From Membranihabitans marinus (lineage in GTDB: Bacteria; Bacteroidota; Bacteroidia; Chitinophagales; Saprospiraceae): a stretch of DNA of 32,239 nt. The stretch is taken from contig NZ_JAJQYA010000032.1 of NCBI RefSeq assembly GCF_021729155.1, positions 1-32,239 of the forward strand, given 5' to 3'. The translations under genes and the position numbers were made by a program. The notes below the pieces were generated by a model. The model had not been told where the DNA came from and ran no database searches. It saw only the letters and a list, made by a program, of their open reading frames with translations. Below, one piece after another: positions 1,344 to 27,728 of this stretch (positions are counted from its first letter, which is position 1; each line of letters starts with the position of its first letter).

Positions 1344-1352
1344 CATGAATAT

Positions 1353-1892
1353 TTAAACAAATTTTATTCCGTATCTACCGCATATCTCTGCGACCACAGG
1401 AAAATTTGGAGGACCCTCCGGTAATTTACTTAATTCGTTAAACATGTGTTCAATACCAGCAGGAAAGGCCGTAGTGCACATTTTTGCTTTTTCTGTACCG
1501 ACTACCTTCCAAGTATGAGGAATGTTTTTGGGAGCATAGGCCATATCTCCTGCACGTAATATCGTAGTTTTGGAACCTACGGTGATTTCAATTTCACCCT
1601 TGATGACTCTGAAGATCTCATCTTCTTTACTGTGTACATGAGGAGGGATTCCCACACCGACTTCCACATCATCCATCCATTCAACGATTTGATTGTCGGT
1701 ATCACTGCCCAGTAATTTATGGGTTTGAATGTCGCCGATTACATTTAATACCTCACCTTCGTGATCTCGTATTATTTTGGCTTCAACCTTTGCTTTTAAA
1801 CCATTTCCTCCTTCTCTAATCTTGGTTATAGAGGGTATAAAGGCTAATCCTAACCCTAAACCAGACGACTTAATAAATGTTTTTCTGTTCAT
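1353..1892 (-). CDS. cupin-domain protein with a Tat-like leader
   Basis: A 179-residue protein. The N-terminus (NRKTFIKSSG followed by a hydrophobic stretch, residues 2-21) looks like the leader of Bacteroidota twin-arginine substrates, with RK in place of RR, so export is likely but not certain. A cupin_2 barrel follows. Motif 1 carries H85, H87, E92 and the G of KGE near 99. Motif 2 has G115, P121 and H126. These are the usual metal ligands of the family, so a metal-dependent enzyme or sugar/small-molecule binding role is likely; the substrate cannot be told. The gene lies 84 bp after an AraC-type regulator on the same strand and may be its target or co-transcribed. A 13-bp hairpin follows the stop codon. 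Confidence 0.85.
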   Translation of the reverse strand: MNRKTFIKSSGLGLGLAFIPSITKIREGGNGLKAKVEAKIIRDHEGEVLNVIGDIQTHKLLGSDTDNQIVEWMDDVEVGVGIPPHVHSKEDEIFRVIKGEIEITVGSKTTILRAGDMAYAPKNIPHTWKVVGTEKAKMCTTAFPAGIEHMFNELSKLPEGPPNFPVVAEICGRYGIKFV

Positions 1893-1976
1893 AACTTTGA
1901 TTTTTAGCTAAGTTATTCGACAGAGAAAGGTTGAATCTCATGAAAATCGCGGTAAAAACCTATATTTTGACATGTA

Positions 1977-2780: not shown

Positions 2781-2961
2781 GACAAATTAATAATTATATT
2801 TTAATGGTTTACAGATCGGTGTATTTCAAAAATACAATAAATTAATTAGTCTTACCCTAAAATAAACAAGTAGATTTTATGAAAAATGAATTGAATTAGG
2901 ACGTTTTTTGGACTTCGTCAAATTGAGATTATCGACATTCACATTGATGATAAGGGTAATA

Positions 2962-3206
2962 AAAAAGGCTCACTGAGAAAATTGATTTATTAATTCTCAT
3001 AAATCAATCCCACAATGAACCTCATCACAATCAAGTCAATATCTCAGATATTACTTTATATTCCGCTATCTATTTCATTTTCTACTGGATTTGCCTATGA
3101 AATGAAATTTTTGATTCTACACAGCAGAGAAGCGGAGCTATATTATCTATCCTGTTGTTGATAGAAGATAAATGATTCACGCTTCTATTTATTGGACATT
3201 TAAAGT
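2962..3206. repeat. decayed upstream copy of a tandem duplication
   Basis: This stretch aligns with few gaps to 3291-3530, about 329 bp away in direct orientation. Shared blocks include TCACTGAGA, ATAAATCAATCCC, CAATGAACCTC, AGAAGCGGAG versus GGAAGCGGAG, and spaced GCTTC/TTGGA matches. The second copy contains the 3' untranslated region and last codons of the RND pump gene, so this copy is a worn duplicate of that segment. Together with the following AT-rich sequence it fills the 654-bp gap between the AraC gene and the pump gene, where I see no other gene. Confidence 0.7.
3060..3206 (-). pseudogene. remnant of the 3' end of a second RND pump gene copy
   Basis: Read on the minus strand, this aligns with the last 30 or so codons of the intact pump gene (3435-3530), including the AGCTCCGCTTC segment against AACTCCGCTTC, which encodes the TPLPSSVEL tail in the intact copy. 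Indels and an in-frame stop make it non-coding. It stops resembling the pump gene upstream of about 3206, so only the end of the gene was duplicated or has survived. Confidence 0.5.
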
Positions 3207-3290
3207 GTAATTTAATTTTTCAACATGGATCCGGAGAAAACATAAATAATCCAAGGGATAAGCTATTTTTTATCCAAAGTATTAAAGAAT

Positions 3291-3530
3291 AAAAGTTCAC
3301 TGAGAGGATCGAATTATAATCCCTAATAAATCAATCCCCCAATGAACCTCTAAACAATCATGTCAATCTAAAAATTATTGCCTCGTTTTTAACTATATAG
3401 TTTTTTTAATTTCCTCCTGAATTTGAATGGAATTTTATAATTCTACTGAGGAGGGAAGCGGAGTTGCATTACCCTTCATATTGTCTGCCATAGAAGAATT
3501 CTTTTTGCTTCCAAATTTCTTGGATATCCA
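3291..3530. repeat. intact copy of the tandem duplication spanning the pump gene 3' end
   Basis: Direct-repeat partner of 2962-3206. It covers the 144-bp 3' flank of the RND pump gene and roughly its last 95 coding bases. A 12-bp perfect palindrome, AACTATATAGTT at 3391-3402, lies between short T-runs and might form the transcript end. Confidence 0.65.
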
Positions 3531-6500
3531 TTCGCCGATATCATCCATAAGGCGATAGGCAATGGGAACGACAATCATGGTCAATAGCATAGAACTAGTT
3601 AAACCTCCAATTAATACCCATGCCAAACCATTTTTCCATTCAGAGCCCGCACCAGAAGCGATGGCGATGGGCACCATAGCAATTACCATGGCAATAGTCG
3701 TCATGAGAATAGGACGGAATCTTTGCAGGGTTCCTTCGATGACGGCTTTTTTGCGATCCATCCCTTCTCGCTTTAATTGATTGACAAAATCCACGATAAG
3801 AATGGCATTTTTTACAACCAATCCCACCAACATGATTAATCCCAACATACCGAATATGCTTAGATTTTCCATGGCCAATGCCAGTGCTAATAAAGCGCCT
3901 ATCAATGCTACGGGAATAGAAAACAAGACGACGAAAGGATAGACATAACTGTCGTATAAGGCGACCATGATTAAATACACCAATAGAATTGAAGTAATTA
4001 GAGCAAAAGCTAAACTGCCAAAAGCATCAGCCTGTCTTTCTAGGTCTCCCCCTTGTGATATGGAGATACCAGCAGGAATGTCCATGGCATCCATTTTACT
4101 TTGGATATCTTCTCCAATGGAGGCGATGTCACGACCGATGATTTGACTTTCGATGGTCAACGACGATATTTTATCTTGTCGCTCTAGTCTTGATGGTCCA
4201 CTGCTCTCTACGATGGACGCAAATTGACTTAATTTTATGAGTTTCCCTTCGTTGTTGAGAAAGGTCAGTTCTGAGATGTCGTCAACATTTTTTCGATTGA
4301 ATGCATCTAATTGGATTCTTATATCGTATTCATATACACCGTCTTGAAACTTTGTGTCGGTATTTCCAGTAAACGCATTTTGCATGGTTAATCCCACAAC
4401 ATCTAAGGTCAGTCCAAGATCAGCCAATTTTTCGCGGTCGATATCTACACTGATTTCAGGATTTCCTCCTTCCACCGTGGATTTTACTTCAGCTGTTCCG
4501 GGGATGGTTTTTATTTCATCGATAAAATCATCGCTAAATTCAAGCAATTCATCGATGTTGTTTCCTTGAATCGTAAGTTGAATAGGCGCTTCCGTAGCAC
4601 CTGATACCATACTGACGGCCTTGGCAGAAAATTTCACCCCAGGGATATTGTCAGATAGCTGAGCTTTTACCATTCTTGCATATTCATCAGAAGTCATCGA
4701 TCGCTCATCAGAAGACACGAGTTTTACATTAATTTCAGTCATATAGGCCGTCGAAGTAGTGCTCAAAAGTCCACTACTCTGTCCAACCGTGGTAAATACA
4801 TTGGTTACTTCAGGTTGGTCTAGTAGATATTTTTCTACTTCCTGTGAAATCATATTGTTTTGATCCAAAGGGGTTTCCTTTGGCATCTCCATGGTGATTA
4901 AAAATTCGCCAACATCTCCGGCAGCTACAAACTCAGATCCTATATAACCATTTGACACTAATTTCATCGATGAAAATACCAGCGCAAATATCAATATCAT
5001 TGAAAGGAGTTTGTGTTTCAAAGTGAGATTGAGCATGGATCGGTAAAAATTTTCAAAACCCTTGATCAACTTTTCAAAACCAATAAGCGGCCAATGAAAT
5101 TTATTTTTAATATTCAAATGAGTGAGTTTAGTAAAGCGAGATGCCAACCACGGGGTCAAAGTAAAAGATACCACTAAACTAATGACGGTTGCTGCTACGA
5201 CGACGAGAGAAAATTGTCGCAAAAGGTCGGCGACCAAACCGGTAACCAAGGCTATGGGGAGAAATACGACGACAATGACTAGGGTAATGGAAAATACCGA
5301 CATCCCTATTTCATTCCAAGTACCTATGGCTGCCTCTCTTGCCGAGGCACCATTTTCCATCCTAGCGTGAATATTTTCTAAGACCACAATACTGTCGTCC
5401 ACCAATATCCCTATAACCAGTGAAAGGGCGAGTAAGGTCATAAGGTTTAGCGTGAATCCGGCCATACTCATCACTGCAAAGGTGGAAATAATAGATACCG
5501 GAATGGCTATCATTACGATAATGGCATTTCTGATGTTGTGCAAGAAAAAGAGCATAATTAGGGCCACCAAAATTACGGCTAACACCAAGTCATTGACTAC
5601 GTGATGGGCAGCCTCGAGGGTGAAAATTGAACTGTCGTTGGATATTTCAAATTTTAAGTTTTCATCGGCATACCGCTCTTCCAATTCTGCAATTTTTGCA
5701 TTGACTTTTTCACTGACTTCGACGGCGTTTCCATCGCTTTGTTTGCTGATAGTGATACCCAATGAAGGTCGACCGTTTATTCGACTTATCGTCTCGAAAT
5801 CTTTTTTGGTATCGTAAACTTCAGCAACATCACTGAGTAGTACTTGTGATCCTTCCTTCGTAGTCATTACACTTAAATTTCGCAATCGGTCGAGGTCTTG
5901 GATTTTCCCAGAAAGCCGAACTAAGACATCTTGATGTTCATCCTTAATACTACCAGTAGGAAAATTGAGATTTGACCGAGCAATGGCTTGGGACAATTGA
6001 AGAATGGATAGATTGTAATACTTTAGTTTATCTCCATCGACATTGATATTGATTTCTCGATCTGCACCTCCGATGATATTTACTTGCGCCACACCTTCTA
6101 TACGGGCAAGTTCTGGCTGTATTAATTCGGTGAATATATTGGTAAATTCAACATCTTCCATGGTAGAAGTTGCACCCATTCGCATTATAGGTGCTTCTGC
6201 CAATGAAAATTTGTCTACACTGGATTTTTTGGCGTCATCGGGTAGATCAGCTGCTATGGCATCTATTTTTCGCTGTGCATTTTGCATGGCAATGTCTTCG
6301 TTGGAACCGTATTTCAATTCCACGATGACGATAGAAAAACTCTCCATAGATGTGGCTTGAATACTTTCAAGATTCTCTATGGAAGAAAGTGCACTTTCAA
6401 TGGGTTTAGTTACCGAGTTTTCCACCTCAGAGGGGGAGGCTCCTGGATAGATAGTAGAGACTGTGATTACCGGTGATGATATATTGGGTAATAGTTCATA

Positions 6501-6599
6501 GGTTAAACTGGAGTAACCATAAAGACCAAAGAAGACCAAGATACTAAACAGCACTACGACCAAGGTCGGTCTTTTAACGGACAATTCTGTTATCGACAT
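3435..6599 (-). CDS. RND multidrug efflux pump, inner-membrane subunit (HAE1/AcrB-like)
   Basis: At 1054 residues it has the usual length for the family. TM1 is at about 8-30, and a large periplasmic porter loop (about 35-335) is followed by TM2-6. TM4 carries the conserved acidic pair D401-D402 in ILVDDSIVVLEN. A second periplasmic loop and TM8-12 follow, with the proton-relay lysine K930 in GLVVKNAILIVDF. These residues correspond to the Asp pair and Lys that carry protons in AcrB-type pumps, so the pump should be active. It would form a homotrimer and export hydrophobic or amphiphilic compounds through the adaptor and TolC-like protein encoded just upstream (2-bp gap to the adaptor gene). 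It is the last gene of the operon. The C-terminal tail is polar, and its coding end is duplicated in decayed form at 2962-3206. Confidence 0.95.
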   Translation of the reverse strand: MSITELSVKRPTLVVVLFSILVFFGLYGYSSLTYELLPNISSPVITVSTIYPGASPSEVENSVTKPIESALSSIENLESIQATSMESFSIVIVELKYGSNEDIAMQNAQRKIDAIAADLPDDAKKSSVDKFSLAEAPIMRMGATSTMEDVEFTNIFTELIQPELARIEGVAQVNIIGGADREININVDGDKLKYYNLSILQLSQAIARSNLNFPTGSIKDEHQDVLVRLSGKIQDLDRLRNLSVMTTKEGSQVLLSDVAEVYDTKKDFETISRINGRPSLGITISKQSDGNAVEVSEKVNAKIAELEERYADENLKFEISNDSSIFTLEAAHHVVNDLVLAVILVALIMLFFLHNIRNAIIVMIAIPVSIISTFAVMSMAGFTLNLMTLLALSLVIGILVDDSIVVLENIHARMENGASAREAAIGTWNEIGMSVFSITLVIVVVFLPIALVTGLVADLLRQFSLVVVAATVISLVVSFTLTPWLASRFTKLTHLNIKNKFHWPLIGFEKLIKGFENFYRSMLNLTLKHKLLSMILIFALVFSSMKLVSNGYIGSEFVAAGDVGEFLITMEMPKETPLDQNNMISQEVEKYLLDQPEVTNVFTTVGQSSGLLSTTSTAYMTEINVKLVSSDERSMTSDEYARMVKAQLSDNIPGVKFSAKAVSMVSGATEAPIQLTIQGNNIDELLEFSDDFIDEIKTIPGTAEVKSTVEGGNPEISVDIDREKLADLGLTLDVVGLTMQNAFTGNTDTKFQDGVYEYDIRIQLDAFNRKNVDDISELTFLNNEGKLIKLSQFASIVESSGPSRLERQDKISSLTIESQIIGRDIASIGEDIQSKMDAMDIPAGISISQGGDLERQADAFGSLAFALITSILLVYLIMVALYDSYVYPFVVLFSIPVALIGALLALALAMENLSIFGMLGLIMLVGLVVKNAILIVDFVNQLKREGMDRKKAVIEGTLQRFRPILMTTIAMVIAMVPIAIASGAGSEWKNGLAWVLIGGLTSSMLLTMIVVPIAYRLMDDIGEWISKKFGSKKNSSMADNMKGNATPLPSSVEL

Positions 6600-6601
6600 A
6601 A

Positions 6602-7705
6602 TTATTGATTGTTAGTGTTTGAAGTAATAGGAGGGGTGATGATTCTAATGGCCCTGCCGTTCTCGAGATTAATCTGTCCCGTAGTAATGATTTCAGTTCC
6701 CAAATCCAATCCGCTGAGGACGGTGACATTTTCACCTATAGTTTCACCGACTTCGATATCAGTCAGTATAGCATGTCCATTTTGCGCTAAGTAAACTTGA
6801 GGCTTCTTTAAACTGCCGACTACACTTTTTCTCGGTATGATCATGACCATTTCATCGGCAGAATTATTGGCAATTGGTATTTTAACCGTGCCATACATAC
6901 CGGCTTTTAGAGGATGGGTTTTACTGTTGGGGATTTCGATTGCCACTTCATATTTTCTGGCCGCATCAGTTTGCACCCCAATTTGGCTGACCTGACCTTT
7001 GAAGATTACATTTGGATAGACTTCCGTCTCGATTTCCACTTTTTGCCCATTTTTAATTTTAACGATATCTTTTTCATCGACCTTGACAATGAGTTTCAAT
7101 TTATTGATATCTACAATTGAGGCGATGATAGTACCGGGATTGGCAAAACTTCCCTCTTCGAGTTTGATTTCTTTGACCACACCACTCATCGGCGATTTGG
7201 CGGAAGCATATTTTAACTGTTCTTCCAAAGCGGTAAGGTTACTCTGCTGGTTTTGCATTCCGAGTTTTATTTCTTCGTATTGAGTTTGACTGATGGCTCC
7301 TACATCCAAGAGGTTTTTATACCGTTCCACATCTTTTTCGGATTTTTGGAAAGCCGCTTGTGCAGTCGACAATTTAGATTGCAATGTCGCAGCGTCAATG
7401 GTAGCAATGGTTTGTCCTTTGGAAATGACCTGACCTTCGGAGATGAGTAACTGGGTAATTCTCCCCTGCATTTCTGCAATTACATTTATTTCTTTTCTAG
7501 CTTCGAAGGTTCCGATCAATGAAAGGTTATTATCGTGTTTTATTGATTGTACCACCGTGGTAGCTACTGGAATTTCGGTTGAAATGACTTCGGTTTGTTG
7601 AGCTTTCTCGTCAATGATTACCTTGTTGCTTTTTAACTTGGAGTAGCCCCATCCAACGGATAACAAGACGATGACAATGGGAATGATGATTTTTAAATAT
7701 TTCAT
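6602..7705 (-). CDS. RND efflux periplasmic adaptor (HlyD/MFP family)
   Basis: A 367-residue protein with an N-terminal membrane anchor (about residues 4-22) and no lipobox Cys. Then come the first barrel-sandwich half (FEARKEINVIAEMQGRITQL, about 68-87), a helical hairpin (about 105-165), the second sandwich half (SPMSGVVKEIKLEEGSFANP) and beta-barrel/membrane-proximal domains to the end. This is the standard membrane-fusion-protein order. It links the RND trimer to the outer-membrane channel. The gene sits 11 bp after the TolC-like gene and 2 bp before the pump gene, so the three are surely one transcript. Confidence 0.94.
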   Translation of the reverse strand: MKYLKIIIPIVIVLLSVGWGYSKLKSNKVIIDEKAQQTEVISTEIPVATTVVQSIKHDNNLSLIGTFEARKEINVIAEMQGRITQLLISEGQVISKGQTIATIDAATLQSKLSTAQAAFQKSEKDVERYKNLLDVGAISQTQYEEIKLGMQNQQSNLTALEEQLKYASAKSPMSGVVKEIKLEEGSFANPGTIIASIVDINKLKLIVKVDEKDIVKIKNGQKVEIETEVYPNVIFKGQVSQIGVQTDAARKYEVAIEIPNSKTHPLKAGMYGTVKIPIANNSADEMVMIIPRKSVVGSLKKPQVYLAQNGHAILTDIEVGETIGENVTVLSGLDLGTEIITTGQINLENGRAIRIITPPITSNTNNQ

Positions 7706-7716
7706 GATTGATTTGT

Positions 7717-9075
7717 TTAGAATGTATTGTTGTTTATGGATTTGATTAATTGAGCTAATTGACCACTGACTTTAACATGGTCTAGTTCTGCTAGTTTGTT
7801 GTTGAGCAGCGCTGTTAAATATTGCGATTGAGCTTCTTTTAAACTGGTTTCAGCATTGAGTAACTCAGTCAAGGGGGCCACTCCTTCTTGATAGGATAAC
7901 TTTGTGACTTCGTATAATTCCTGCGCCAATTTCATGTTATCCTCTTGGGTTGTGATGAGTTCTTTGTTGTTCTCGATTTTTATCTTGGCGTTTTTATATT
8001 CCATTTCAACGGCATTTTCAAAGTTGTATGCACTGAGTTTGATTTGGTCGATGACGATTTTGTTCTCTTCTAGTTTTTTGCGTTTTTGAAACCCATCGAA
8101 AATAGGCATAGAGAGCCTTAATCCCCACAGTCCATATCCGAAGGAATAATAATTGTCTTTTTTAAGGTTGAATTTGTCGCCTTGTCCATTATAATTAAAT
8201 TGTGCGAATGCATTGATGGTCGGATAATATCCAGCCTTGATGACTTCATTATCCATTTCAGCCAATAATAATTGTTGTTTTAAGATTCGGTAATCTAAAT
8301 TTTCAGCCAACATCAATTCGTCTGAAATGGGATAATCTCCAGAGTCCAAAAGGTCTTGATTGAGTTCGATCATTTGATTTGGATCGAGAGCTAGGTAAAA
8401 TCGCAGTACGTTTAATTGTTGCTCAGCGGCAATATCCAAATTCGACAATTCTGAATGGAGATTAGTTCTGTTGACCTTGAGCTGATCTACGTCTAGTTTT
8501 TTGATGATTCCGTTTTCATATTGGGCTTGGCCAATGTGGACCAGATGCTCAATACGTTCTAGGTTGGCCTTTAAAATCCCCTCTTGTTCTCTTGTGATTT
8601 GATATTGAATATAGATTTGAGCTACGTTGTAGACCAAATCTTCCATGGTAGATAAGGTCTGTAATTGGTAGGTAGATTTTACCGCATCTAATTTTTTGAT
8701 GTTTTCGAGATAGGATTTATTGTAAATCATTTGATTGACCTCTAGGCCGGCATTCAAGCCGTATCTGACTCCGAATTGAATGGGGATTTGGCCTGTCTCT
8801 CCGATTATTTCTCCAGGCAATAATTGAGAGGGGAGAGCAAAGTTGTCGGTGAATCCAGCAGTTCCAGACAATTGTGGGAGTGCCGTTCCTTTGGCAGTCT
8901 CAATTTGCTTGGTTAGAATATTTTCGTTTAGCCTTACTCTTTTTAAATCGGGATTGTTATTGACGGCTATTTCCATCGCTTGACGCAGACTTAGAAATAG
9001 AGTATCAGAGGCAAATGCCGGATGAAGGATACACAAAAATAGTGTAGCCATCACACAGGTGAGAGGTTTAATCAT
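7717..9075 (-). CDS. TolC-family outer-membrane efflux protein
   Basis: A 452-residue protein with a Sec signal peptide (about 1-22, ending PAFAS). It has two OEP repeats, each opening with the alanine- and asparagine-rich helix typical of the family (LRQAMEIAVNNNPDLKR at about 30; the second repeat from about 270). The C-terminal half ends in the long helix ...YQEGVAPLTELLNAETSLKEA (about 395-420), a very common signature of TolC-like channels. It should trimerise to form the outer-membrane duct for the adaptor and pump encoded downstream. The start is 68 bp after the regulator stop codon; that gap contains an operator-like palindrome. Confidence 0.94.
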   Translation of the reverse strand: MIKPLTCVMATLFLCILHPAFASDTLFLSLRQAMEIAVNNNPDLKRVRLNENILTKQIETAKGTALPQLSGTAGFTDNFALPSQLLPGEIIGETGQIPIQFGVRYGLNAGLEVNQMIYNKSYLENIKKLDAVKSTYQLQTLSTMEDLVYNVAQIYIQYQITREQEGILKANLERIEHLVHIGQAQYENGIIKKLDVDQLKVNRTNLHSELSNLDIAAEQQLNVLRFYLALDPNQMIELNQDLLDSGDYPISDELMLAENLDYRILKQQLLLAEMDNEVIKAGYYPTINAFAQFNYNGQGDKFNLKKDNYYSFGYGLWGLRLSMPIFDGFQKRKKLEENKIVIDQIKLSAYNFENAVEMEYKNAKIKIENNKELITTQEDNMKLAQELYEVTKLSYQEGVAPLTELLNAETSLKEAQSQYLTALLNNKLAELDHVKVSGQLAQLIKSINNNTF

Positions 9076-9108
9076 AATTAGTATGGTTTGTTTTGTAAAT
9101 ATTGATTT

Positions 9109-9126
9109 GTTCTGTATTTTAAGAAC
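9109..9126. promoter_or_regulatory. operator-like palindrome upstream of the efflux operon
   Basis: GTTCT-N8-AGAAC lies between the regulator stop codon and the TolC-like gene start. The same arms with the same 8-base spacing recur at 9642-9659 in front of the regulator. A repeated palindrome at both transcription entry points next to a winged-helix regulator is the expected pattern for its binding site. That the encoded regulator binds it is inference. Confidence 0.6.
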
Positions 9127-9143
9127 TAGCGTGGCAAAAAAAA

Positions 9144-9596
9144 TTATTTATTGACCCATTCTTCAATGGCTTGGTTCATTTTTTGGGATAAAAATGTTTG
9201 AAAATCATTTAACTTTTTAATTTTTTCGTAAAACTCGACATGTTCACTGTTTTCTCTATTTTTTAATACTTCATTGAGGAGCTGATTCATTTCCGTAAGA
9301 GATTGCGCTTTCTCAATAATTTTGTTTTCCCATTCTTCGGTATTTACCATAAAGTACCGTTTTCGATCACCGTTAAATGTCTTGTAAATAATACTACCAT
9401 CCCTCAAGTAATAGTTAATGGCATTGCTGACAGCACTTTTACTTGCTCCGAGAAACTCCCGGATTTCATCAAAGGATTTGTACGGAGGCTCAGAAATAAG
9501 TAAAAATGCAAATACTCTACATTCTAAGGGCGATTTATGGTTCATACGCTCTAAAAGGACGCCCATTTTTTCTACGGATTGTTTTGTATCATTCAT
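9144..9596 (-). CDS. GbsR/MarR-like winged-helix regulator of the efflux operon
   Basis: 150 residues from the ATG at 9596. An upstream in-frame TTG at 9650 would add 18 residues but overlaps the promoter and operator, so I reject it. Residues about 41-84 form the winged helix: SFDEIREFLGASKSAVSNAI is the helix-turn-helix, and GDRKRYFMVN is the wing. The C-terminal helix-rich part fits the dimerisation region of GbsR-type proteins. The family usually represses a nearby transporter operon and is relieved by a small molecule. It is the first gene of the cluster, transcribed in the same direction as the three pump genes. Confidence 0.85.
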   Translation of the reverse strand: MNDTKQSVEKMGVLLERMNHKSPLECRVFAFLLISEPPYKSFDEIREFLGASKSAVSNAINYYLRDGSIIYKTFNGDRKRYFMVNTEEWENKIIEKAQSLTEMNQLLNEVLKNRENSEHVEFYEKIKKLNDFQTFLSQKMNQAIEEWVNK

Positions 9597-12920: not shown

Positions 12921-14441
12921 ATGCAAGATATAATTCAAAGCCGTATTTATTTTTTTTCTTTAATTGTCATGACATTATCCATATCTGTTAATTCACAATC
13001 GATTCAGTGGGAAAATTCATTGGATACAGTTATTGAGATAGGTCATCAAAAACAGCTTTTTATTGATGATTATATTATTGAGACCAGTAAGGGCATTGAA
13101 TTTACAATGCATCAACCCTATATGACAGGAGAGACATTGTTAGAGTCTGATCAACCCTATGAAAAAGGTGGTTTTCCTTATTTGTATTCCAGCGTTATCA
13201 AAGATGATAATATGGGAGTGCAATTGTGGTATGACTTTTTCAAACCCAAGAGCAGCGACCCATATGATCACGATCGCCATTTAGCCTATGCTATTTCCAA
13301 GGATGGGATTCATTTCGAGAAACCAAATTTGGGATTTTATGAGTACAATGGAAATAAGGACAATAATATAGTCATTCCCGGTGTCATCGGTGGGGGATCA
13401 GTATGGATAGATCCCAAAGCAGAAGCGGAGCATCGATACAAATCTCAATCGAAAGTATATCCCTCTGGTGAGTTTCATATGCATAGTTCGCCCGACGGTA
13501 TCCATTGGAAAAAATATGGTAAGATTAACCCACAAGGACCTCATGATACTCAAACCATCGTTTTTTGGGATGACACCTTGAAAAAATATCTTTTTTACGG
13601 GCGGTATTTTATACAGCGAGGCGATATAAGGGAAAGAGCAGTTCGAAGGGCGATTATAAAAGATGATTTTAAGACTATAGAGAATACGGGATTAGCGATA
13701 TGGTCTGACCTAAAGGATAAGAACAAATACAGTGATATTATGTCTCATGGAAATACCGTGGATTACTATGGTGCCACGGTTTTCAAATACGAAGGTGTCT
13801 ATCTCATGTTGGCTCAAGCTTATTGGCATTGGGTGCCCAATACCACCTTTCAAGGTACTGATGAACCGGGAATGCGAGATGTCAGATTGGCGGTAAGTAG
13901 AAATAGTGTAGATTTTAAAAGATTGGGGGAACGAAAAGCTTTTATGACGCCTGGACCAATGGGGAGATTCGACTCTAAGCAGTTGTGGGCACTGCCCAAT
14001 CCCATTGTCATGGGCGATGAAATTTGGATTTACTATAGCGGAGTAAATTGGGATCGGGCAGGAAGGATTGATCCGATGTCCGAAGGGAAAAAAGCAGCCA
14101 TTGGCAGGGCAGTATTGCGTCTTGACGGTTGGGTTTCTGCTGATGCTTCCTATGAAAATACTGGTGAAATTATTACCAAACCCATCCAGTTTTCTGGAAC
14201 AGAACTAAAAATTAATGCCAATACTGGTGCAGGAGGTTCCATTCGACTGGCTATTTTGGATGAAGAAGGTCAAGTTATAGAGGGTTTTGATATTGAAGAC
14301 TGTCATTATATTATAGGAAATTCGACACAGCACAAGGTTGAGTGGGATAAACATCCTAAATTATTAGCATTGAAAGGACAGACCATTCGTTTAAAATTTG
14401 TATTAAGAGATTGCGAATTGTATTCATTTCAATTTTTGTAA
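12921..14441 (+). CDS. secreted beta-propeller glycosidase-like protein
   Basis: A 506-residue protein with a signal peptide (about 1-26, hydrophobic core FFSLIVMTLSISV, then NSQ). The mature part begins with IEIGHQKQLFIDDYIIE, a motif I associate with large families of secreted proteins in Bacteroidota and Planctomycetes related to the GH32/43/68 five-bladed propellers. Blade-like strands recur (YAISKDGIHFEKPNLGFYEY; HSSPDGIHWKKYGKI; LAVSRNSVDFKRLG; IWIYYSG). A beta-sandwich follows from about residue 415 (GEIITKPIQFSG to the end). Catalytic acids cannot be assigned with confidence, so the substrate is unknown; a role in polysaccharide breakdown is the family-level guess. The last codons coincide with the left end of the downstream hairpin repeat (shared 14-mer 14432-14445). 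Confidence 0.7.
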   Translation: MQDIIQSRIYFFSLIVMTLSISVNSQSIQWENSLDTVIEIGHQKQLFIDDYIIETSKGIEFTMHQPYMTGETLLESDQPYEKGGFPYLYSSVIKDDNMGVQLWYDFFKPKSSDPYDHDRHLAYAISKDGIHFEKPNLGFYEYNGNKDNNIVIPGVIGGGSVWIDPKAEAEHRYKSQSKVYPSGEFHMHSSPDGIHWKKYGKINPQGPHDTQTIVFWDDTLKKYLFYGRYFIQRGDIRERAVRRAIIKDDFKTIENTGLAIWSDLKDKNKYSDIMSHGNTVDYYGATVFKYEGVYLMLAQAYWHWVPNTTFQGTDEPGMRDVRLAVSRNSVDFKRLGERKAFMTPGPMGRFDSKQLWALPNPIVMGDEIWIYYSGVNWDRAGRIDPMSEGKKAAIGRAVLRLDGWVSADASYENTGEIITKPIQFSGTELKINANTGAGGSIRLAILDEEGQVIEGFDIEDCHYIIGNSTQHKVEWDKHPKLLALKGQTIRLKFVLRDCELYSFQFL

Positions 14442-15088: not shown

Positions 15089-18000
15089 CTAGGGATGTTT
15101 TATAACCTTAATAAACTCTCCCAAAATTTTCATATTCTTGGCTTGGTCACGGTTGATTGATAGATTTTGGTATTGTCTATCATGGGAATGAGGCCGTAAG
15201 ACAATATTGACTTGATTATTGGAAGAATATTCTTCAGAGTAGGTTTTTACGGTAAAGGATGATTTGAAGTCGGTATCGTGATAGTCTCCTTGCTCAATTA
15301 AAACAATTTTACCACTTCGAATTCCGCCATTATATTTTTTAAATAAGCAAATCGATCCATTGGGAATTACTCGATTCATCGATTCACCGATCACTTTACA
15401 GGAAAAATACTCGTCCTGTTGATTTCGGGGTTGAGGAATTTCAATTGTGGTAAAATCTTTTTCCGCTTGCATCTCACTAAAGGAACCCGCAGCGGCATAA
15501 AAATTATACAATGGTATTTTAATAGTGTTATCTTGTTTGGAATCGACACTTTCGTCGACGCTTGGCTGCGGAGGAGATATCACATCCTGACTGGTTTGAT
15601 GGTCAGTGATGTATTGATACATGGCATTGGATACTGGCCGAGAAAGATTAAATCGAATTTTGACCACGGGAATAGATTTTCCGGAATCGTTTTGAATCGT
15701 TGTTTCTAATTCCCTACCTGGTTGGGGCGATATATCCCCCATAAAATAAAAGTCTATGCCTTCGTCGTTGTTCTTTTTAATAAATAAAGGGAGTCGAATC
15801 GAACCTTTCTTGCCGAGGATGGCTTGTACGTCATCGCTTTGAAGTCTGCGATTGGATTTTGACATCCAATCAAACTCTCGGTTGTTTATAAATTCATCAG
15901 CGTATTTAGTAGATTCGGAGATGTGGTCTTCCTTGTGATAATTGACAAAAATGGGGCAATTCTTAAGATCTGGACTGATCATGTAGCCACCCACGTTTTG
16001 AGCTACTGGATTGACTTCAAAGTTGAGAATGCGGAAAACATCTTTGCGTGAATATTTATGGTATAAGAGAAATCCGTTGTCCCACTTTTGAGGGGCAAAT
16101 TCCTGATTAAATCGATGTAGACCATAGTCGATAGAGTCCAATAAAAATGCTTTAAAGGTTGGATTCTCTAGTTGAATCTGAAAGGCAGGTGTTAGTTCAA
16201 AATGGTCATTGCGAAACCTTATAACTTCGATTTCATGAATTATTCCTGCAGGTTTTAATTTTCCATTCTTTTTCTGCCGAGTAAATCTAAAATTGAGGTT
16301 GTTGACACAGGATTCTATGGTGTCATTCGATATGGAGTAATCATAGTTTTTAGTGAGCTGTCTATTTAAGGTTTCTGCATCTAATTTGCCCGTAAGTATT
16401 AATTGCTGAAGGATAATAGACTCTTCCACTCGTTTGCCGTTGTTAATTTCGAGTGAAAAAAGTTCTAGAAGTTTAATTGCCTTTGAAGGTAGTTCTAGTG
16501 AAGAAGTTTGGTCGACTTTGCAAACAAAATTGAAATAGGATTGACTGTATTTGACGAATAAGTAAGGATCGCGTGAGCCCAGATGAATAAAATCCATCAT
16601 CATTGGTATCCTACCTAGTTTATATTTTAAAAGTAAATAGTCTTTTTTTAAATCTGAGAGCAATTGAAGGTTGGCGGCATTTATGGATTCATAAATCTTC
16701 TTTTTAGTAATTTCATCGAAATTAATCGTTGAAGCACCAGGGATCATTCTACTTCCATTTGAAAGTAGATTGCGCAATTTATCTTTATTATAGGAATGAT
16801 CTCCGTATAAAGCAATGGGAATGAGGTAATTATTTTTGTAATTGCCTATAAAGTCTATGATGGTTAGATATCCCTTTCCTTCCACCTTTCTAAGCCCTCT
16901 ACCCAGTTGCTGAATAAACACTATTGCTGATTCCGTGGGGCGAATAAGCAAAATTTGATTGACTTTGGGGATATCTACCCCCTCATTAAATATATCTACG
17001 GTAAAAATATAATCCAATTTTTTGGCCAAATCATCAGATTCTAATCTATCGATGGCTGAAGTCCGTTCATTTTCAGAATTTTCCCCAGATAACGCTAATG
17101 TTTTGTATCCCAGTTGATTAAAATTTTCAGAAAGAGATTTTGCTTCTTCTATTCTCGAACAAAAGACCAAACCTCGAACAATACCATTATCTGTACCGTA
17201 AAATTCAGCGGTGGAGACTATGTGGTTGAGTCTTTCATTATTTGAAAGACGGTTGAAATCTTCAGTATTTTCTAAATCTACTTCATCTACAGATAAGTCC
17301 GTTACCCCGTAATAGTGAAACTGACTTAACATATCCTCCTCCATGGCCCGACTAAGGCGAATTTCATAGGCAATGTTGTGATCGAATAGACTGAAAATGT
17401 CATAGCCATCCGTTCTTTCAGGAGTGGCCGTCATGCCCAATAAAAACTTCGGTTGAAAATAGTCTAAAATCTTTAAATATGAATCAGCACCTGATCGATG
17501 AGATTCATCAATGACAATATAGTCAAAGTGATCCACCGCAAAGTTTGAATAATGATGGGGCTTGGAAATGGTTTGAACGGTTGAAAATATAAAGTCATTA
17601 TCTATCTCTCGCTGACTGCCGGAATACAATCCCATGGTCCGTTGATGGCCAAATATTTGTTGAAAAGTCTCCATCGATTTTTTTGCAATATTTTGACGAT
17701 GGACTACAAAGAGCAACTTTTTTGCTTGAAATGCCTTGGCGTCGAAGGCGGATAAAAACGTCTTACCCGTCCCCGTAGCTGAAATAATTAGGGCTTTTGT
17801 TTTATTTTGACTTCTTAAAATGGATAAGTTCTTTAAAGCTTCGAGTTGCATCGAATTCGCTCGTATGGTATTTTCAGGATTGGTAGAAAGAGAATTCTCC
17901 CTATGAATCAGTCGTTGTTTATGGTATATTTTTTCATACTCCGATAGAAATGATAGCGTTACAGGACGTGCTTTGTCGAAATCTGTTTCAAACTCTTGGA

Positions 18001-18511
18001 TTACCTTATGAGAAATGGAGCTGTCTCTGAGCGCACTAACTTTTAGGTTCCATTCTTTATTGGTCGCCAATGCGGAAGCGGTAAGGTTACTGCTGCCTAT
18101 GATTAAATTGTAGTGATCGGACTTTTTAAAAATATAGCATTTGTTGTGTGCATTTTCCGTGGTAGCTATTCGCAATTCAATATTGGAAAATTTCCGCAAC
18201 CTTTTTAAGGCTTCCGGTTGAGTGAAATTGAGGTATTGTGATACTAAAATCTTCCCTTGTATTTGCCGGAATTCCAGCTCTTTCAATGTATTGATGATGG
18301 TTGCGACTCCACTAGTGGTTACAAATGCTACAGAAATATAGAAACTCTCGCAGGTATTTAATTCTTGTAGAATAGTGGATAAAACCTTGGTCGGTGGTTT
18401 TTTTCGGTTAATTAAAAGTTTGGGTTGGTATTCTAATGTTGAGAGGGATGTTTTGTCTATAAAGCCCGTTGCCAAACTTTTTTCAAATTCTTCAATCAGA
18501 CTATCCTTCAT
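15089..18511 (-). CDS. PLD nuclease / SF2 helicase / DUF3427 protein with C-terminal LexA-like S24 domain
   Basis: A 1140-residue protein. Residues about 35-180 form a phospholipase-D-type nuclease domain with the HKD-like motif HNKCYIFKKSD (H122, K124) and GSSNLT (139-144). Residues about 220-560 are an SF2 helicase: Walker A ATGTGKT (245-251), DESH (335-338), TATPERTDG (361-369) and QLGRGLR (535-541). Residues about 570-980 match the DUF3427-type tail of such helicases. Residues about 1002-1140 are a complete S24/LexA-like domain: candidate cleavage site AAAG (1006-1009), nucleophile S1044 in GESMNRVIPNGS, and general-base K1089 in FTVK. The gene starts inside the last codons of the NUDIX gene (11-bp overlap). 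Related nuclease-helicases are found in genome-defence contexts. A DNA-damage- or phage-responsive role is inferred, as is self-cleavage. Confidence 0.88.
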   Translation of the reverse strand: MKDSLIEEFEKSLATGFIDKTSLSTLEYQPKLLINRKKPPTKVLSTILQELNTCESFYISVAFVTTSGVATIINTLKELEFRQIQGKILVSQYLNFTQPEALKRLRKFSNIELRIATTENAHNKCYIFKKSDHYNLIIGSSNLTASALATNKEWNLKVSALRDSSISHKVIQEFETDFDKARPVTLSFLSEYEKIYHKQRLIHRENSLSTNPENTIRANSMQLEALKNLSILRSQNKTKALIISATGTGKTFLSAFDAKAFQAKKLLFVVHRQNIAKKSMETFQQIFGHQRTMGLYSGSQREIDNDFIFSTVQTISKPHHYSNFAVDHFDYIVIDESHRSGADSYLKILDYFQPKFLLGMTATPERTDGYDIFSLFDHNIAYEIRLSRAMEEDMLSQFHYYGVTDLSVDEVDLENTEDFNRLSNNERLNHIVSTAEFYGTDNGIVRGLVFCSRIEEAKSLSENFNQLGYKTLALSGENSENERTSAIDRLESDDLAKKLDYIFTVDIFNEGVDIPKVNQILLIRPTESAIVFIQQLGRGLRKVEGKGYLTIIDFIGNYKNNYLIPIALYGDHSYNKDKLRNLLSNGSRMIPGASTINFDEITKKKIYESINAANLQLLSDLKKDYLLLKYKLGRIPMMMDFIHLGSRDPYLFVKYSQSYFNFVCKVDQTSSLELPSKAIKLLELFSLEINNGKRVEESIILQQLILTGKLDAETLNRQLTKNYDYSISNDTIESCVNNLNFRFTRQKKNGKLKPAGIIHEIEVIRFRNDHFELTPAFQIQLENPTFKAFLLDSIDYGLHRFNQEFAPQKWDNGFLLYHKYSRKDVFRILNFEVNPVAQNVGGYMISPDLKNCPIFVNYHKEDHISESTKYADEFINNREFDWMSKSNRRLQSDDVQAILGKKGSIRLPLFIKKNNDEGIDFYFMGDISPQPGRELETTIQNDSGKSIPVVKIRFNLSRPVSNAMYQYITDHQTSQDVISPPQPSVDESVDSKQDNTIKIPLYNFYAAAGSFSEMQAEKDFTTIEIPQPRNQQDEYFSCKVIGESMNRVIPNGSICLFKKYNGGIRSGKIVLIEQGDYHDTDFKSSFTVKTYSEEYSSNNQVNIVLRPHSHDRQYQNLSINRDQAKNMKILGEFIKVIKHP

Positions 18512-18938
18512 CGGCCATTATTTTGTCTACAATTGGGATGTCAGCTGCTGCCCAATCAAGATTATTTAATTGGTTGTTTTTTAGCCATTTAAGGTCGATG
18601 TGTTCGCGTAGTATAACATCAATTTTACGCGGAATTCGACAACGAAAACTATGCATGGTTAATTCAAAATCGGGGTATTCATGACATACAGTAAGGTAAA
18701 AATCTTGAATTTCAACTTGGATATTTAACTCTTCCATTAACTCCCTTTGCAAGGCTTGTGTTCGCGATTCTCCAGCTTCTAATTTACCTCCTGGAAACTC
18801 ATACTTTTCTGAAATATAAGGTAACTTGTTTTTATCGCGTTGGACACATAAGATATCCTGACCACAGTAAATGATGCCGGCTACAACTTCAACTTTTTTC
18901 TTTTTATAATCTTTCTTTTGTGTTTCTGTGCTCTGCAT
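18501..18938 (-). CDS. NUDIX hydrolase (MutT/NudG-like)
   Basis: A 145-residue protein with a full NUDIX box at 51-73: G51, E57, R65-E66, E69-E70 in GKLEAGESRT...RELMEELNI, the Mg-binding signature of nucleoside-diphosphate-X hydrolases. The order VAGIIYCGQDILCVQR, then KYEFPGGK, is typical of MutT/NudG-like proteins that hydrolyse oxidised or modified (d)NTPs. The C-terminal HIDLKWLKNNQLNNLDWAAAD segment is also usual for that subgroup. Its stop codon overlaps the helicase start by 11 bp, so the two are translationally coupled. NUDIX domains are known partners of PLD/SF2/DUF3427 proteins, so the two probably act together. The substrate is unknown. Confidence 0.92.
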   Translation of the reverse strand: MQSTETQKKDYKKKKVEVVAGIIYCGQDILCVQRDKNKLPYISEKYEFPGGKLEAGESRTQALQRELMEELNIQVEIQDFYLTVCHEYPDFELTMHSFRCRIPRKIDVILREHIDLKWLKNNQLNNLDWAAADIPIVDKIMADEG

Positions 18939-18978: not shown

Positions 18979-19007
18979 GTTGGTATATATTAATGAATTT
19001 GACCAAC
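18979..19007. promoter_or_regulatory. inverted repeat in the NUDIX-helicase promoter region
   Basis: GTTGGT (18979-18984) and ACCAAC (19002-19007) flank 17 bases, 41-69 bp before the NUDIX start codon. The centre-to-centre spacing of about 23 bp would place both arms on one DNA face, as in many operators. There is no second copy to support it, so it is tentative. Confidence 0.3.
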
Positions 19008-19024
19008 TATGTTTTTTAGCTTCT

Positions 19025-23707: not shown

Positions 23708-23988
23708 AACTTACATTCCATTTTTACATGAGTAAAGATAGATAACTTTATAGCTTATCGGATGATACTAAATTCATTTGGTTTAAGTCTTCCATAGCAA
23801 GTATAATCATGTGTAAGTAAATTGTTGTAGATTTATTTTCGTAATGTATTACTTTTCAGTCATGTATGTTGTTTATTTATACAAACTTTTGTTATATTTA
23901 CTGCCAGATATTGCTCGCATCGGCAGTGATATTAGAATAGCATGAAGATATATTATTTTCTAATTATTTTCTTAAACACCATTTGTTT

Positions 23989-26900
23989 ATGCGCTATTTT
24001 AATGTCTTAACCCTCACACTTGGATTTGTTTTATTTTCGTTTAATTTATTTAGTCAGGATCGACCTTTTATTACCACTTGGAAGACGGATAACTATGGAA
24101 CATCAGATCATCAATCTATTGTCATTCCAGTGAGTTTTCTTTATCAGTATAATTATGATGTCGATTGGGATAACGATGGTATTTACGACGATATTGGTCT
24201 GACAGGTGAATCATCCCACCGCTACGATAGCGCCGGTGTCTATACCATAGCTATCAGAGGACAATTTCCTACAATTCGTTTCAATAGAGGAGGAGATTGT
24301 GAGAAAATCTTATCTATTGATCAATGGGGGGATATTGAGTGGATTTCTTTTAATGGATCTTTTTCAGGTGCAGAAAATTTAGAGTTAAAGGCCAACGATC
24401 TTCCCGATTTATCGAAAGTGAGTAGTCTAGCCTATATGTTTTCAGGAGCATCTACAATGAATGCCGATATCAGTGTTTGGGATGTAAGTAATGTGACCGA
24501 TATGTCCTATATGTTTTCTGGTGCATCTTCCTTTAATCAAGATCTAAATAGCTGGGATGTATCGAGTGTTACCAATATGTCCTATATGTTTTCAAGAGCA
24601 TCTTCATTTAATCAAGATCTAAATAAATGGGTTGTGTCCAAGGTCACTAGTATGGAGTCAATGTTTAATCAAGCGAGTGAATTTAATGAAAATGTAAGTA
24701 ATTGGGATGTATCGAGTGTTACCGATATGTCTTATATGTTTTCAGGGGCATCCTCCTTTAATCAAGATCTAAATAGCTGGGATGTATCGAGTGTGACCTA
24801 TATGTCCTATATGTTTTATGGTGCATCTTCATTTAATCAAGATCTAAATAAATGGGATGTGTCCAAGGTCACTAGTATGGCATCAATGTTTAATCAAGCG
24901 AGTGAATTTAATGGAAATGTAAGTAATTGGGATGTATCGAGTGTTATGAATATGAAAGAAATGTTTTCCTATGCATCCATGATGAATGGGGATATCAGTG
25001 CTTGGGATGTGTCAAGTGTTATGAATATGAAAGCAATGTTTGCAGATGATACAGTTTTTAATCAGGATATTGGATCCTGGGATGTGTCGAGTGTAAGCGA
25101 TGTGTCTTATATGTTTTATGGAGCATCTTCATTTAATCAAGATTTAAATAGCTGGAATGTTGGGAATGTAATTGATATGTTTGGAATGTTTTACGAGGCT
25201 TCTTCCTTTAACGGAGAAATTGTTTCCTGGGATGTGTCGAGTGTAAGCGATATGTCTTATATGTTTTATGGAGCATCTTCCTTTAATCAAGATTTAAATA
25301 GCTGGAATGTTGGAAATGTAATTGATATTTTTGGGATGTTTTCAGAGACTTATTCCTTCAATGGAGAAATTGGGTCCTGGGATGTGTCGAGTGTTAGGGA
25401 TATGTCTTATATGTTTTATGAAGCATCCTCATTTAATCAGGATATAGGATCTTGGGATGTTTCAAATGTAACAGATATGCAATATATGTTTTATAGTGCA
25501 TCTTCCTTTAATCAAGCTTTAGACAACTGGGACGTGTCCAAAGTGACTACTATGGAAGCAATGTTTGCAGAGGCTTATTCTTTTAATAGAGATATTTCTT
25601 CGTGGGATGTTTCTCAAGTTGAAAACATGGCTTTTATGTTTACAAGTGATACGGTTTTCAATCAGGATATAGGGGCATGGGATGTTTCCAATGTTGCGGA
25701 TATGTCTTTTATGTTTTATGAAGCCAGAGAATTCAATGGAGATATTTCTTCCTGGGATGTATCAAATGTAACAAATATGCAATATATGTTTTCAAGAGCA
25801 TCCACCTTTAATCAGGATATAGGATCTTGGGATGTTTCCAATGTTGTAGATATGTATTCCATGTTTGCCCGTGATACAGTTTTTAATCAGGATATAGGAC
25901 CTTGGGATGTTTCCAATGTTACAGATATGTCTTATATGTTTCATAAAGCATCCTCATTTAATCAAAATTTAAATAGCTGGGATGTATCCAATGTTGTCTA
26001 TATGTCTAGCATGTTTCGTGAAGCATCCTCCTTTAATCAGGATATAGGATCCTGGGATGTGTCAAATGTGACTAGAATGGGGTATATGTTCTATGGAGCG
26101 GTCTCCTTTAATCAGGATATAGGATCTTGGGATGTTTCCAATGTAACAGATATGCGAAATATGTTTTATAAAGCATCCTCCTTTGATCAGGATATTGGTA
26201 ATTGGGAAGTATATAGAGTGAATGACATGTATTCTATGTTTGAAAATGCATCCTCTTTTAATCAGGATATTGGGGCTTGGAATGTGAATAGTACGTTTGA
26301 TATGACTAATATGTTTAAAAATGCCTCTTCTTTTAATCAAAACATTGGAAAATGGGATATTGGTCAGACATATTATATGTCCGGAATGTTGGATTCATCA
26401 GGAATGACTATTGAGGTTTATGATTCTGTATTATTATCTTGGTCAAATGCTGACTTTTATAATAAGATTCTAGGAGCGAATGGATTGAAATATTGTGAAT
26501 CATCTGAGGCGCGAAATCAACTTATCTCGGAAAAAGGATGGTCATTTAATGGAGATCAATGTTATTGTGCAGATATTGCCACCTATATAGAGACCATTGA
26601 TGATACTATCTATTGTAGTGATGATAGTATAAGTCAAATATGTTTTGATGACTATCCCAATATGAATTTTATTTGGGATGTTGAAAATATAGACGGATTC
26701 CAAAAACAGTATGGACACTGTATTGATTTAGAACCCGGTACCTATATTCGAAATTTATCCATTGAGAAAGATTCGGCTTGTATGATTAGTGATACGGTGA
26801 CTATCATTAAAAATACAGCTATTTCGGTGACTTTGTTTGAAGATTCTACTTATACCGTCATAGGAGGTGTACAGCCTTATGATGCAGAATTTCAACGGAG

Positions 26901-27228
26901 TGGAAATCAGTTGAGTATCGTAGTTACCGATGTCCTTGGATGTAAAGGAAGTGACGCTTTGGTATTGACGGCTGACCGCGAAATAGCCATCAATAGTTTT
27001 CAAATTTTTCCCAATCCCGTACATGAAACAGTGTATATCCAAAATGATGATGAATATACCTCTTATCGTGTCAAACTCATGGATCAATATGGCCGTCTAA
27101 TGGGTGAATACAAGGATGTGAGTCAAATTGATGTTAGCACTTATCCTTCTGGATTGTATTATCTCAGAGTCATTCCTCATTCGGCGGAAAATAAATATCA
27201 ACATTCTGCATTGATTATTTCTCACTAG
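23989..27228 (+). CDS. T9SS-exported DUF285/BspA-type surface protein (paralogue 1)
   Basis: 1079 residues from the ATG at 23989; a TTG six bases earlier is an unlikely start. The signal peptide is about 1-22 (...FNLFSQ). Residues about 25-110 form a PKD-like domain with a Ca-binding-type loop (DWDNDGIYDD). About 26 tandem 25-residue repeats follow (consensus [25 protein letters not shown], split here as [11 protein letters not shown] and [10 protein letters not shown]), from about 150 to 805: the DUF285/BspA-like leucine-rich type of surface proteins. A Cys-containing segment follows with a SprB-like motif (GGVQPYDAEFQRSG ... VTDVLGCKGSDAL, about 950-985), then the T9SS type-A sorting domain (FQIFPNPVHE through [12 protein letters not shown], about 1005-1079). 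It is probably attached to the cell surface and used in adhesion. Confidence 0.92.
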   Translation: MRYFNVLTLTLGFVLFSFNLFSQDRPFITTWKTDNYGTSDHQSIVIPVSFLYQYNYDVDWDNDGIYDDIGLTGESSHRYDSAGVYTIAIRGQFPTIRFNRGGDCEKILSIDQWGDIEWISFNGSFSGAENLELKANDLPDLSKVSSLAYMFSGASTMNADISVWDVSNVTDMSYMFSGASSFNQDLNSWDVSSVTNMSYMFSRASSFNQDLNKWVVSKVTSMESMFNQASEFNENVSNWDVSSVTDMSYMFSGASSFNQDLNSWDVSSVTYMSYMFYGASSFNQDLNKWDVSKVTSMASMFNQASEFNGNVSNWDVSSVMNMKEMFSYASMMNGDISAWDVSSVMNMKAMFADDTVFNQDIGSWDVSSVSDVSYMFYGASSFNQDLNSWNVGNVIDMFGMFYEASSFNGEIVSWDVSSVSDMSYMFYGASSFNQDLNSWNVGNVIDIFGMFSETYSFNGEIGSWDVSSVRDMSYMFYEASSFNQDIGSWDVSNVTDMQYMFYSASSFNQALDNWDVSKVTTMEAMFAEAYSFNRDISSWDVSQVENMAFMFTSDTVFNQDIGAWDVSNVADMSFMFYEAREFNGDISSWDVSNVTNMQYMFSRASTFNQDIGSWDVSNVVDMYSMFARDTVFNQDIGPWDVSNVTDMSYMFHKASSFNQNLNSWDVSNVVYMSSMFREASSFNQDIGSWDVSNVTRMGYMFYGAVSFNQDIGSWDVSNVTDMRNMFYKASSFDQDIGNWEVYRVNDMYSMFENASSFNQDIGAWNVNSTFDMTNMFKNASSFNQNIGKWDIGQTYYMSGMLDSSGMTIEVYDSVLLSWSNADFYNKILGANGLKYCESSEARNQLISEKGWSFNGDQCYCADIATYIETIDDTIYCSDDSISQICFDDYPNMNFIWDVENIDGFQKQYGHCIDLEPGTYIRNLSIEKDSACMISDTVTIIKNTAISVTLFEDSTYTVIGGVQPYDAEFQRSGNQLSIVVTDVLGCKGSDALVLTADREIAINSFQIFPNPVHETVYIQNDDEYTSYRVKLMDQYGRLMGEYKDVSQIDVSTYPSGLYYLRVIPHSAENKYQHSALIISH
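24541..24950 (+). repeat. 225-bp tandem duplication of three repeat units in paralogue 1
   Basis: 24541-24725 and 24766-24950 are nearly the same at DNA level, offset exactly 225 bp (three 75-bp units). Both contain GATCTAAATAGCTGGGATGT and, 75 bp later, GATCTAAATAAATGGG. This marks a recent in-frame expansion. Confidence 0.8.
25081..25400 (+). repeat. 150-bp tandem duplication of two repeat units in paralogue 1
   Basis: GATGTGTCGAGTGTAAGCGA occurs at 25081 and 25231, with a close variant at 25381, each 150 bp apart (two 75-bp units). The intervening SWNVGNVIDMFGMF and SWNVGNVIDIFGMF units are almost identical. Confidence 0.8.
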
Positions 27229-27728
27229 TATTGAGAAGCCAGCTGGTTGTTTATATTGAAAATAATTACCTAATCGAATCAAATGATGCCGGCTTCTATC
27301 AATGAAGTATGGGGAAATAAGATGGCGATGGTTGAAAATGAGTGGCTAACCCACAGCAATACCGAGGCTAGTCTATAGAGGTTATGTCAACTTTGTAGTA
27401 TGGAAGATTGAGTGATCGAACCACAGCCATGATAAAACTCTATATCCCTCTTTTGGGAATTGACAATAAGTTAGATATTATAAATTAATAGTGTTGAAGG
27501 CTTGTGTTTTTATGTTATTGTTTTTTGAAGGCATATGAGTATTTTTTTATGGCATTTTAGTGTATGTGATATAATAAAAGACAAATTGACTGTTGAATAC
27601 TTTTGTTCCTTGTTGTTTTTATAATATATTACAAGTAGTTGTTTTAAATGCTATTGTTGCTTCCAATAAGAGATTTTGAAATAGCAAAAGAACAAATTAT
27701 TAAGCCAATCCCTAAACTTCACATGATT
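27229..27728. repeat. 500-bp spacer between surface genes, copy 1
   Basis: No gene. It is clearly homologous to the next spacer (30669-31175): both start with ATTGAGAAGCCAGNTGGTTG, continue with ATGAAGTATGGGGAAATAAG, and end with a T-rich stretch containing TTTTTATGTTATTGTTTT and AATATATTACAA. GAAGCCAG near the start can pair with CCGGCTTC about 50 bases later, a possible transcript end. Promoter elements for the next gene must lie here, but none is certain. Confidence 0.65.

Follow-up and report, generated by a model that had tools for sequence, protein, structure and literature searches.

What is a LexA-type self-cleavage domain doing at the end of a restriction enzyme? In bacteria, domains of this kind serve to turn on genes once DNA has been damaged. 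The question is raised by one gene of Membranihabitans marinus (Bacteroidota, Saprospiraceae), located on the minus strand of contig NZ_JAJQYA010000032.1, of which all 32,239 nucleotides were analyzed and are denoted the window below. Its product, of 1140 amino acids (aa), joins a SauUSI-type nuclease-helicase to a C-terminal S24 module. We estimate at about one in two the probability that this tethered LexA-type module is a built-in, post-translational off-switch for restriction alleviation, a reading of which we infer the RecA dependence, the off direction and the degradation. The gene and its parts are the following.

15089..18511 (-): SauUSI-type restriction enzyme with C-terminal S24 module, 1140 aa (open reading frame; PADLOC; phmmer)
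17984..18370 (-): PLD nuclease domain, residues 48-176 (PLDc_2 E 1.7e-10, Pfam)
16841..17866 (-): superfamily 2 (SF2) helicase/translocase core, residues about 216-557 (ResIII, 216-365, E 7.1e-40; Helicase_C, 445-540, E 4.4e-12)
15608..16462 (-): DUF3427, residues 684-968, coupler plus SRA-like domain predicted to bind modified cytosine (Pfam E 1.9e-83)
15518..15607 (-): variable low-confidence linker, residues 969-998 (mean pLDDT 32 at 971-980 and 27 at 981-990)
15092..15517 (-): predicted S24 self-cleavage module, residues 999-1140 (Peptidase_S24; hhalign to LexA/UmuD/CI)
15485..15496 (-): predicted cleavage motif Ala-Ala-Ala/Gly, residues 1006-1009 (conservation in 116 modules)
15380..15382 (-): predicted catalytic Ser1044 (116/116 modules)
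15245..15247 (-): predicted catalytic Lys1089 (116/116 modules)

The preliminary description of this DNA had pointed to PLD nuclease motifs, SF2 helicase motifs and a DUF3427-like region, and Pfam matched all of these (PLDc_2, ResIII, Helicase_C, DUF3427). Together they form the full PLD-SF2-DUF3427/SRA architecture of SauUSI-type enzymes: residues 4-968 align with positions 4-952 of the 953 in the PADLOC model mREase_IV PDLC03658 (E 2.1e-225), the phmmer match to SauUSI itself (PDB 7clg; PMC7913695) has E 1.2e-213, and 7clg was the best Foldseek match of the predicted model. For each of two AlphaFold models, the 50 Foldseek matches listed were nuclease-helicase proteins. The nuclease motifs H122-x-K124, which aligns with HxK of SauUSI, and G139-S-S-N142 are invariant across 41 full-length aligned rows, and the helicase motifs are likewise shared with SauUSI; the Glu position of the PLD motif HxK(x)4E, Glu126 in SauUSI, is Lys129 here. 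The published account of the SauUSI modified-cytosine site names M829, Y831, F841, I842, D858 and W868 as pocket residues (PMC7913695), four of which are identical in our protein (Y843, F855, D872, and W882), with Val in place of I842 and Gly in place of M829. Its sequence places the effector among the SauUSI-type enzymes, which belong to restriction type IV and depend on modified cytosine, and it looks made to shred methylated foreign DNA. Whereas SauUSI stops after the SRA domain, the M. marinus protein continues through the 30-residue linker into the 142-residue S24 module.

This tail had been described as a complete S24 domain with AAAG (1006-1009), S1044 and K1089, all of which are found as stated, and residues 1000-1132 match Peptidase_S24 (PF00717, E 6.1e-8, 32.8 bits vs a cut-off of 23.3). 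The absence of a DNA-binding repressor part was also borne out, with no helix-turn-helix (HTH) family detected in the 1140-aa protein at E 0.001 in Pfam and NCBIfam scans. In contrast to LexA and lambda CI, which are repressors with an HTH (UmuD has none), the cargo here is a nuclease-helicase. Comparison of a 20-module profile with a profile of LexA and UmuD of E. coli, lambda CI and the organism's own S24 protein yielded an hhalign probability of 94.9 (E 4.3e-8), with Ala-Gly, Ser, and Lys falling at the corresponding positions of the LexA row, although the second alignment is small and misaligns the own S24 protein at its Lys. The spacing between Gly and Ser, described early on as LexA-like, is 35 here and 33-37 across 116 distinct modules, compared with 34 in LexA, 35 in UmuD, 37 in lambda CI, and 38 in the own S24 protein. 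The Ser-Lys spacing differs: 45 in 116/116 modules vs 37, 37, 43, and 42, respectively. A PDB profile search with the module gave no match at E 0.1. Its sequence sets the module apart as a lineage of its own within S24.

The predicted site and dyad are nearly invariant among the 116 modules (A1008, S1044, and K1089 in 116/116; A1007 and G1009 in 114/116), and the positions neighboring Ala-Gly, Ser, and Lys vary. The exceptions at the site are AAAS (L048), VTAG (L150), and AVAT (L180). Conservation of Ser is partly selected because the search patterns of the genome scan (80 loci) contained the Ser motif; Ala-Gly and Lys were absent from these patterns. The count excludes L158/L168, which are cut by a contig end and show Ala-Ala-Gly, Ser, and Lys in their visible part, as well as the partial matches L210 and L211, and was made without later-found modules and the degenerate L264. 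The Ala at P2 (114/116 modules) is a further difference from ordinary S24 proteins of the class, of which 4/25 have it (25 of 29 loci were readable); the own S24 protein, with the site AQAG, has no P2 Ala.

The genome scan reported 331 module relatives, and locus counts refer to the best 80 of these. The module is preceded by SauUSI-type sequence in 58 loci and by a GIY-YIG nuclease with a Schlafen-group-3 (SLFN) helicase in 22. In 47 of the SauUSI-class loci, the fusion occupies a single frame that reaches 1,100 aa or more, and in the other 11, it is truncated at a contig end, has a frame break, or survives as a remnant; 18 of the SLFN loci are frames of at least 700 aa. According to the record titles, the hosts are Bacteroidota (73), Balneolaceae (2), Gammaproteobacteria (4), and one Rhizobium metagenome-assembled genome. 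The preliminary description had proposed such a survey of S24 fusions and of their A-G, Ser, and Lys, and what emerged was 47 intact fusions and, across the set of 116 modules, retention of these residues in 114-116. A chance or assembly fusion is ruled out by the recurrence of this intact fusion in 47/80 loci.

The 116 modules fall into SauUSI (63), SLFN (47), HsdR (3), and Res (1) classes, with two left without a class. HsdR-type proteins of ~1190 aa carry the module in L166, L167, and the viral contig L181; in L166, for which alone of the three the operon context was annotated, the S24 domain is on the HsdR of a type I operon, HsdM-HsdS-AAA_21-HNH-HsdR (838-9570). Locus L180, from a viral collection (574-6508), encodes a type III Res with S24 adjoining its Mod methylase and additionally contains a Fic gene, and in L182 (Halomonas), the module lies behind a Schlafen-group-3 helicase in a different frame. 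In the module tree, a quick tree with 19/113 inner branches well supported, the four named classes require 4 changes (6 with the unassigned rows), compared with a mean of 41 after shuffling, which fits few fusion events. The predicted domain content of these proteins indicates that the S24-SauUSI fusion is no oddity and that the same module is shared and reused on four ATP-dependent restriction or nuclease-helicase classes, being common to SauUSI, GIY-YIG/SLFN-group-3, type I (HsdR), and type III (Res) proteins. That restriction enzymes otherwise unrelated to one another end in the same tail suggests that DNA-cutting defenses have an emergency switch in common.

Capture of a phage repressor by read-through is unsupported: tblastn with the module (E 1e-5) gave zero matches in 50,697 phage records, and the two loci matched in viral contigs both encode restriction subunits. 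One plasmid record of 72,556 matched under the same conditions. Locus L057 has two S24 modules on one contig: that of its SauUSI+S24 gene and, upstream of this gene at the locus edge (1-522), another that scores 32.8 bits with Pfam S24.

No strong match in an intact free-standing gene was found in three surveys (395, 345, and 328 genomes; 18, 27, and 13 strong matches), which overlap in genomes, the own genome included, and are therefore not independent. In the phylum survey, 22/395 genomes matched, 18 of them at >100 bits: 16 in frames of at least 724 aa (one with an internal stop), one in a frame of 246 aa that follows an interrupted helicase frame, and one cut by a contig end; the frames with the four weak matches (~20 bits) measure 58-249 aa. 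The class survey yielded matches in 31/345 genomes, 27 of these at >170 bits, all in frames of at least 547 aa (two with an internal stop), and four weak; the order survey yielded 15/328, comprising 13 at >170 bits in frames of at least 736 aa, one remnant, and one degenerate copy. When the whole S24 family was scanned in 60 genomes of the class, all five listed frames >400 aa corresponded to this module. The effector, for its part, occurs with and without the tail. DUF3427 was detected in 46/395 genomes of the phylum survey, with nine matches >200 bits, of which five have S24 in frame (the own protein, G084, G220, G175, and G411), three are proteins of 975-988 aa without S24 (G207, G279, and G117), and one is confined to a frame of 241 aa. 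A tree was built from 58 effector parts that span residues 60-930, and in it, one change separates the 51 with S24 from the 7 without, the latter being rows with long branches.

How could the module act? Under the off-switch reading, the S24 domain would be stable until it meets RecA-single-stranded DNA filaments, which would form upon damage to the host chromosome, including damage inflicted by the enzyme itself; the M. marinus genome encodes RecA. The triggered domain would then cut its own chain at Ala1008-Gly1009, the freed nuclease-helicase would have ...Ala-Ala-Ala as its new C-terminus, resembling both LexA fragments and ssrA tags (GNNNFALAA in the tmRNA of this genome), and this Ala-ended product would be removed by ClpXP-type proteases, so that restriction would be on in healthy cells and off once host DNA is broken. 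We prefer this direction on the combined grounds of the Ala-Ala end left by the cut, the P2 Ala bias, the ClpXP C-degron of LexA-like proteins, and the removal of HsdR by ClpXP. LexA-like proteins are reported to carry such a degron at the cut site (PMC5742171), and restriction alleviation is known to involve ClpXP acting on HsdR (PMC4231737, PMC3874165, PMC11109961). The proposed outcome is the same as in EcoKI restriction alleviation, namely, removal of a restriction motor subunit upon host DNA damage, but there ClpXP acts in trans and, according to PMC4231737, the HsdR degron was not found, whereas here a self-cleaving domain of the restriction subunit would expose one. Somewhat more tentatively, with odds slightly below even, we extend this proposal to the whole set: one portable S24 module would serve as a RecA-triggered self-destruct tag on type I, III, and IV enzymes and GIY-YIG/Schlafen nuclease-helicases, a cis-encoded form of restriction alleviation that would couple immunity to host DNA integrity without transcription.

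Within Bacteroidetes, S24 proteins with the same signature residues control a DNA-damage response, self-cleavage having been inferred there from conservation, without a non-cleavable mutant (PMC8565304). The one other S24 protein of M. marinus (298 aa, Gln-Ala-Gly, adjoining triose-phosphate isomerase) resembles the non-canonical LexA of that paper but has no HTH matched by Pfam in its N-terminal part.

A reason for restraint may be encoded in the same genome. On contig C47 (L252), an HTH gene, a cytosine-C5 DNA methyltransferase, and an MvaI/BcnI-family restriction gene stand in a row, likely a type II restriction-modification system in the genome of a 5-methylcytosine-dependent enzyme. MvaI/BcnI-family enzymes recognize CCNGG-type sites. 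Should the C5 methylase target CCWGG-like sites, the DNA that it modifies would become a substrate for SauUSI, which is reported to cut Cm5CWGG (PMC3874153). Self-damage by the restriction enzyme is therefore plausible.

UmuD is activated by cleavage, and the opposite direction was also weighed: the S24 domain could hold the nuclease-helicase inactive until phage replication or DNA damage leads RecA to trigger the cut, which could free an active SauUSI-like core. The predicted product 1-1008 contains the whole SauUSI-type enzyme, the seven S24-less relatives in the effector tree end 3-9 residues past the SRA match, and S. aureus SauUSI (953 aa) works without any S24 domain (PMC7913695). An ssrA-like Ala-Ala C-terminus would, however, be odd for an activated product, and the module is also found on HsdR, which in E. 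coli is shut off after DNA damage (PMC3874165). We consider this on-switch unlikely, although it fares best among the alternatives.

Several observations weigh against the off-switch. The full-length AlphaFold model has pTM 0.41, with pLDDT <50 at both 1005-1009 and 1041-1049, and the cleavage-site and dyad loops are likewise below 50 in a second model. The P2 Ala may reflect inheritance or active-site fit because the modules share ancestry. An exact SOS box, CTAA-N5-TTAG, is absent from the window, the other Bacteroidetes motif, GGA-N5-TCC, not having been searched. The S24 frame persists behind a frame break in L034, L050, L077, L088, L100, and L103 and with little or no effector sequence in L068, L081, L083, and L108, so that the module alone is tolerated once the effector is deleted or broken. 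Finally, some type III tails have lost the site. In L180, it reads Ala-Thr, and in L264/L266 (3236-6544, minus strand), a type III Res-like protein adjoining an N6/N4 methylase has an S24-like C-terminal domain (37.7 bits in the order survey; hhalign E 1.1e-7; Pfam S24 17.5 bits, below cut-off) without the Ala-Gly, Ser, and Lys, so that this domain must act without cleavage.

LexA, CI, and UmuD C-terminal domains dimerize, and the two type III cases, L264/L266 with the domain kept and all catalytic residues lost and L180 without Ala-Gly, would fit a cleavage-independent role in which the S24 fold is a dimerization or partner-binding domain and the catalytic residues are kept otherwise or by inheritance. 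Yet Ala-Gly is retained in 114/116 modules and Ser and Lys in 116/116, among variable neighboring positions, and we regard such a role as improbable, more so than activation by cleavage. Slightly less probable still is RecA-independent or constitutive processing, at maturation or by another signal (DNA binding, translocation, stress), for which IrvR of Streptococcus mutans, a LexA-like protein, is a reported exception to the RecA rule (PMC7101444) and which would suit an S24 lineage set apart by Ser and Lys 45 residues from each other and missed by the PDB profile search, but the site, dyad, and Gly-Ser spacing resemble those of RecA-responsive members.

The restriction gene has an operon partner immediately upstream.

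18501..18938 (-): NUDIX hydrolase, 145 aa, with an 11-base overlap with the restriction gene (NUDIX E 4.1e-14, Pfam; PADLOC PDC-S07 E 9.3e-44)

Its NCBIfam scores are all below cut-off (the best being PRK08999, 87 bits; NudG-type PRK10546, 77; MutT, 67). A NUDIX gene lies upstream in 52/58 SauUSI-class loci, in 48 of them within 25 bases of the S24-carrying frame, and in 0/22 SLFN loci; of the six SauUSI-class loci without it, four have <100 bases of upstream sequence and two (L068, L083) also have no effector. The association is not confined to S24 fusions: NUDIX also precedes the S24-less SauUSI genes G207 and G117 and is annotated before SauUSI genes in a Hymenobacter, two lactobacillus, and one S. 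aureus plasmid record (2/4 confirmed by Pfam), the last preceding a SauUSI homologue. The gene matches the PADLOC candidate PDC-S07 and differs from it in sharing operons with SauUSI-type genes, whether or not these carry S24. The enzyme probably rids the nucleotide pool of cytidine triphosphates that bear modifications, which would keep modified deoxycytidine triphosphate (dCTP) out of host DNA and spare that DNA as a target; specifically, the enzyme may be a 5-methyl-dCTP pool cleaner. Regulation of the operon by an SOS box is unsupported, no significant box being present before it: one-mismatch sites number 13 in the window vs 17.45 expected, one of these, at 19007-19019, preceding the NUDIX gene. 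In L034, a GIY-YIG/SLFN-type frame (3-1652) is found upstream of a NUDIX-SauUSI-S24 operon (2680-6456) in which the SauUSI frame is broken.

Elsewhere in the window, a 506-aa open reading frame (12921-14441) is convergent with the S24 gene and has no Pfam, NCBIfam, or PADLOC match, and two large DUF285-repeat proteins (23983-27228 and 27648-30668) have C-terminal secretion (Por) tails.

Searches of papers in PubMed Central, a scope that leaves subscription papers and domain databases outside, yielded no description of an S24 domain on a restriction enzyme or of this set of fusions, and the architecture may be recorded elsewhere. It has long been asked how cells prevent restriction enzymes from attacking host DNA that is damaged or has just been modified. 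If the proposed reading is true, a self-cleaving domain on the restriction subunits of several systems unrelated to each other would answer this directly in another lineage, and these fusions would add a class of LexA-family proteins in which the cargo is an effector enzyme instead of a repressor.

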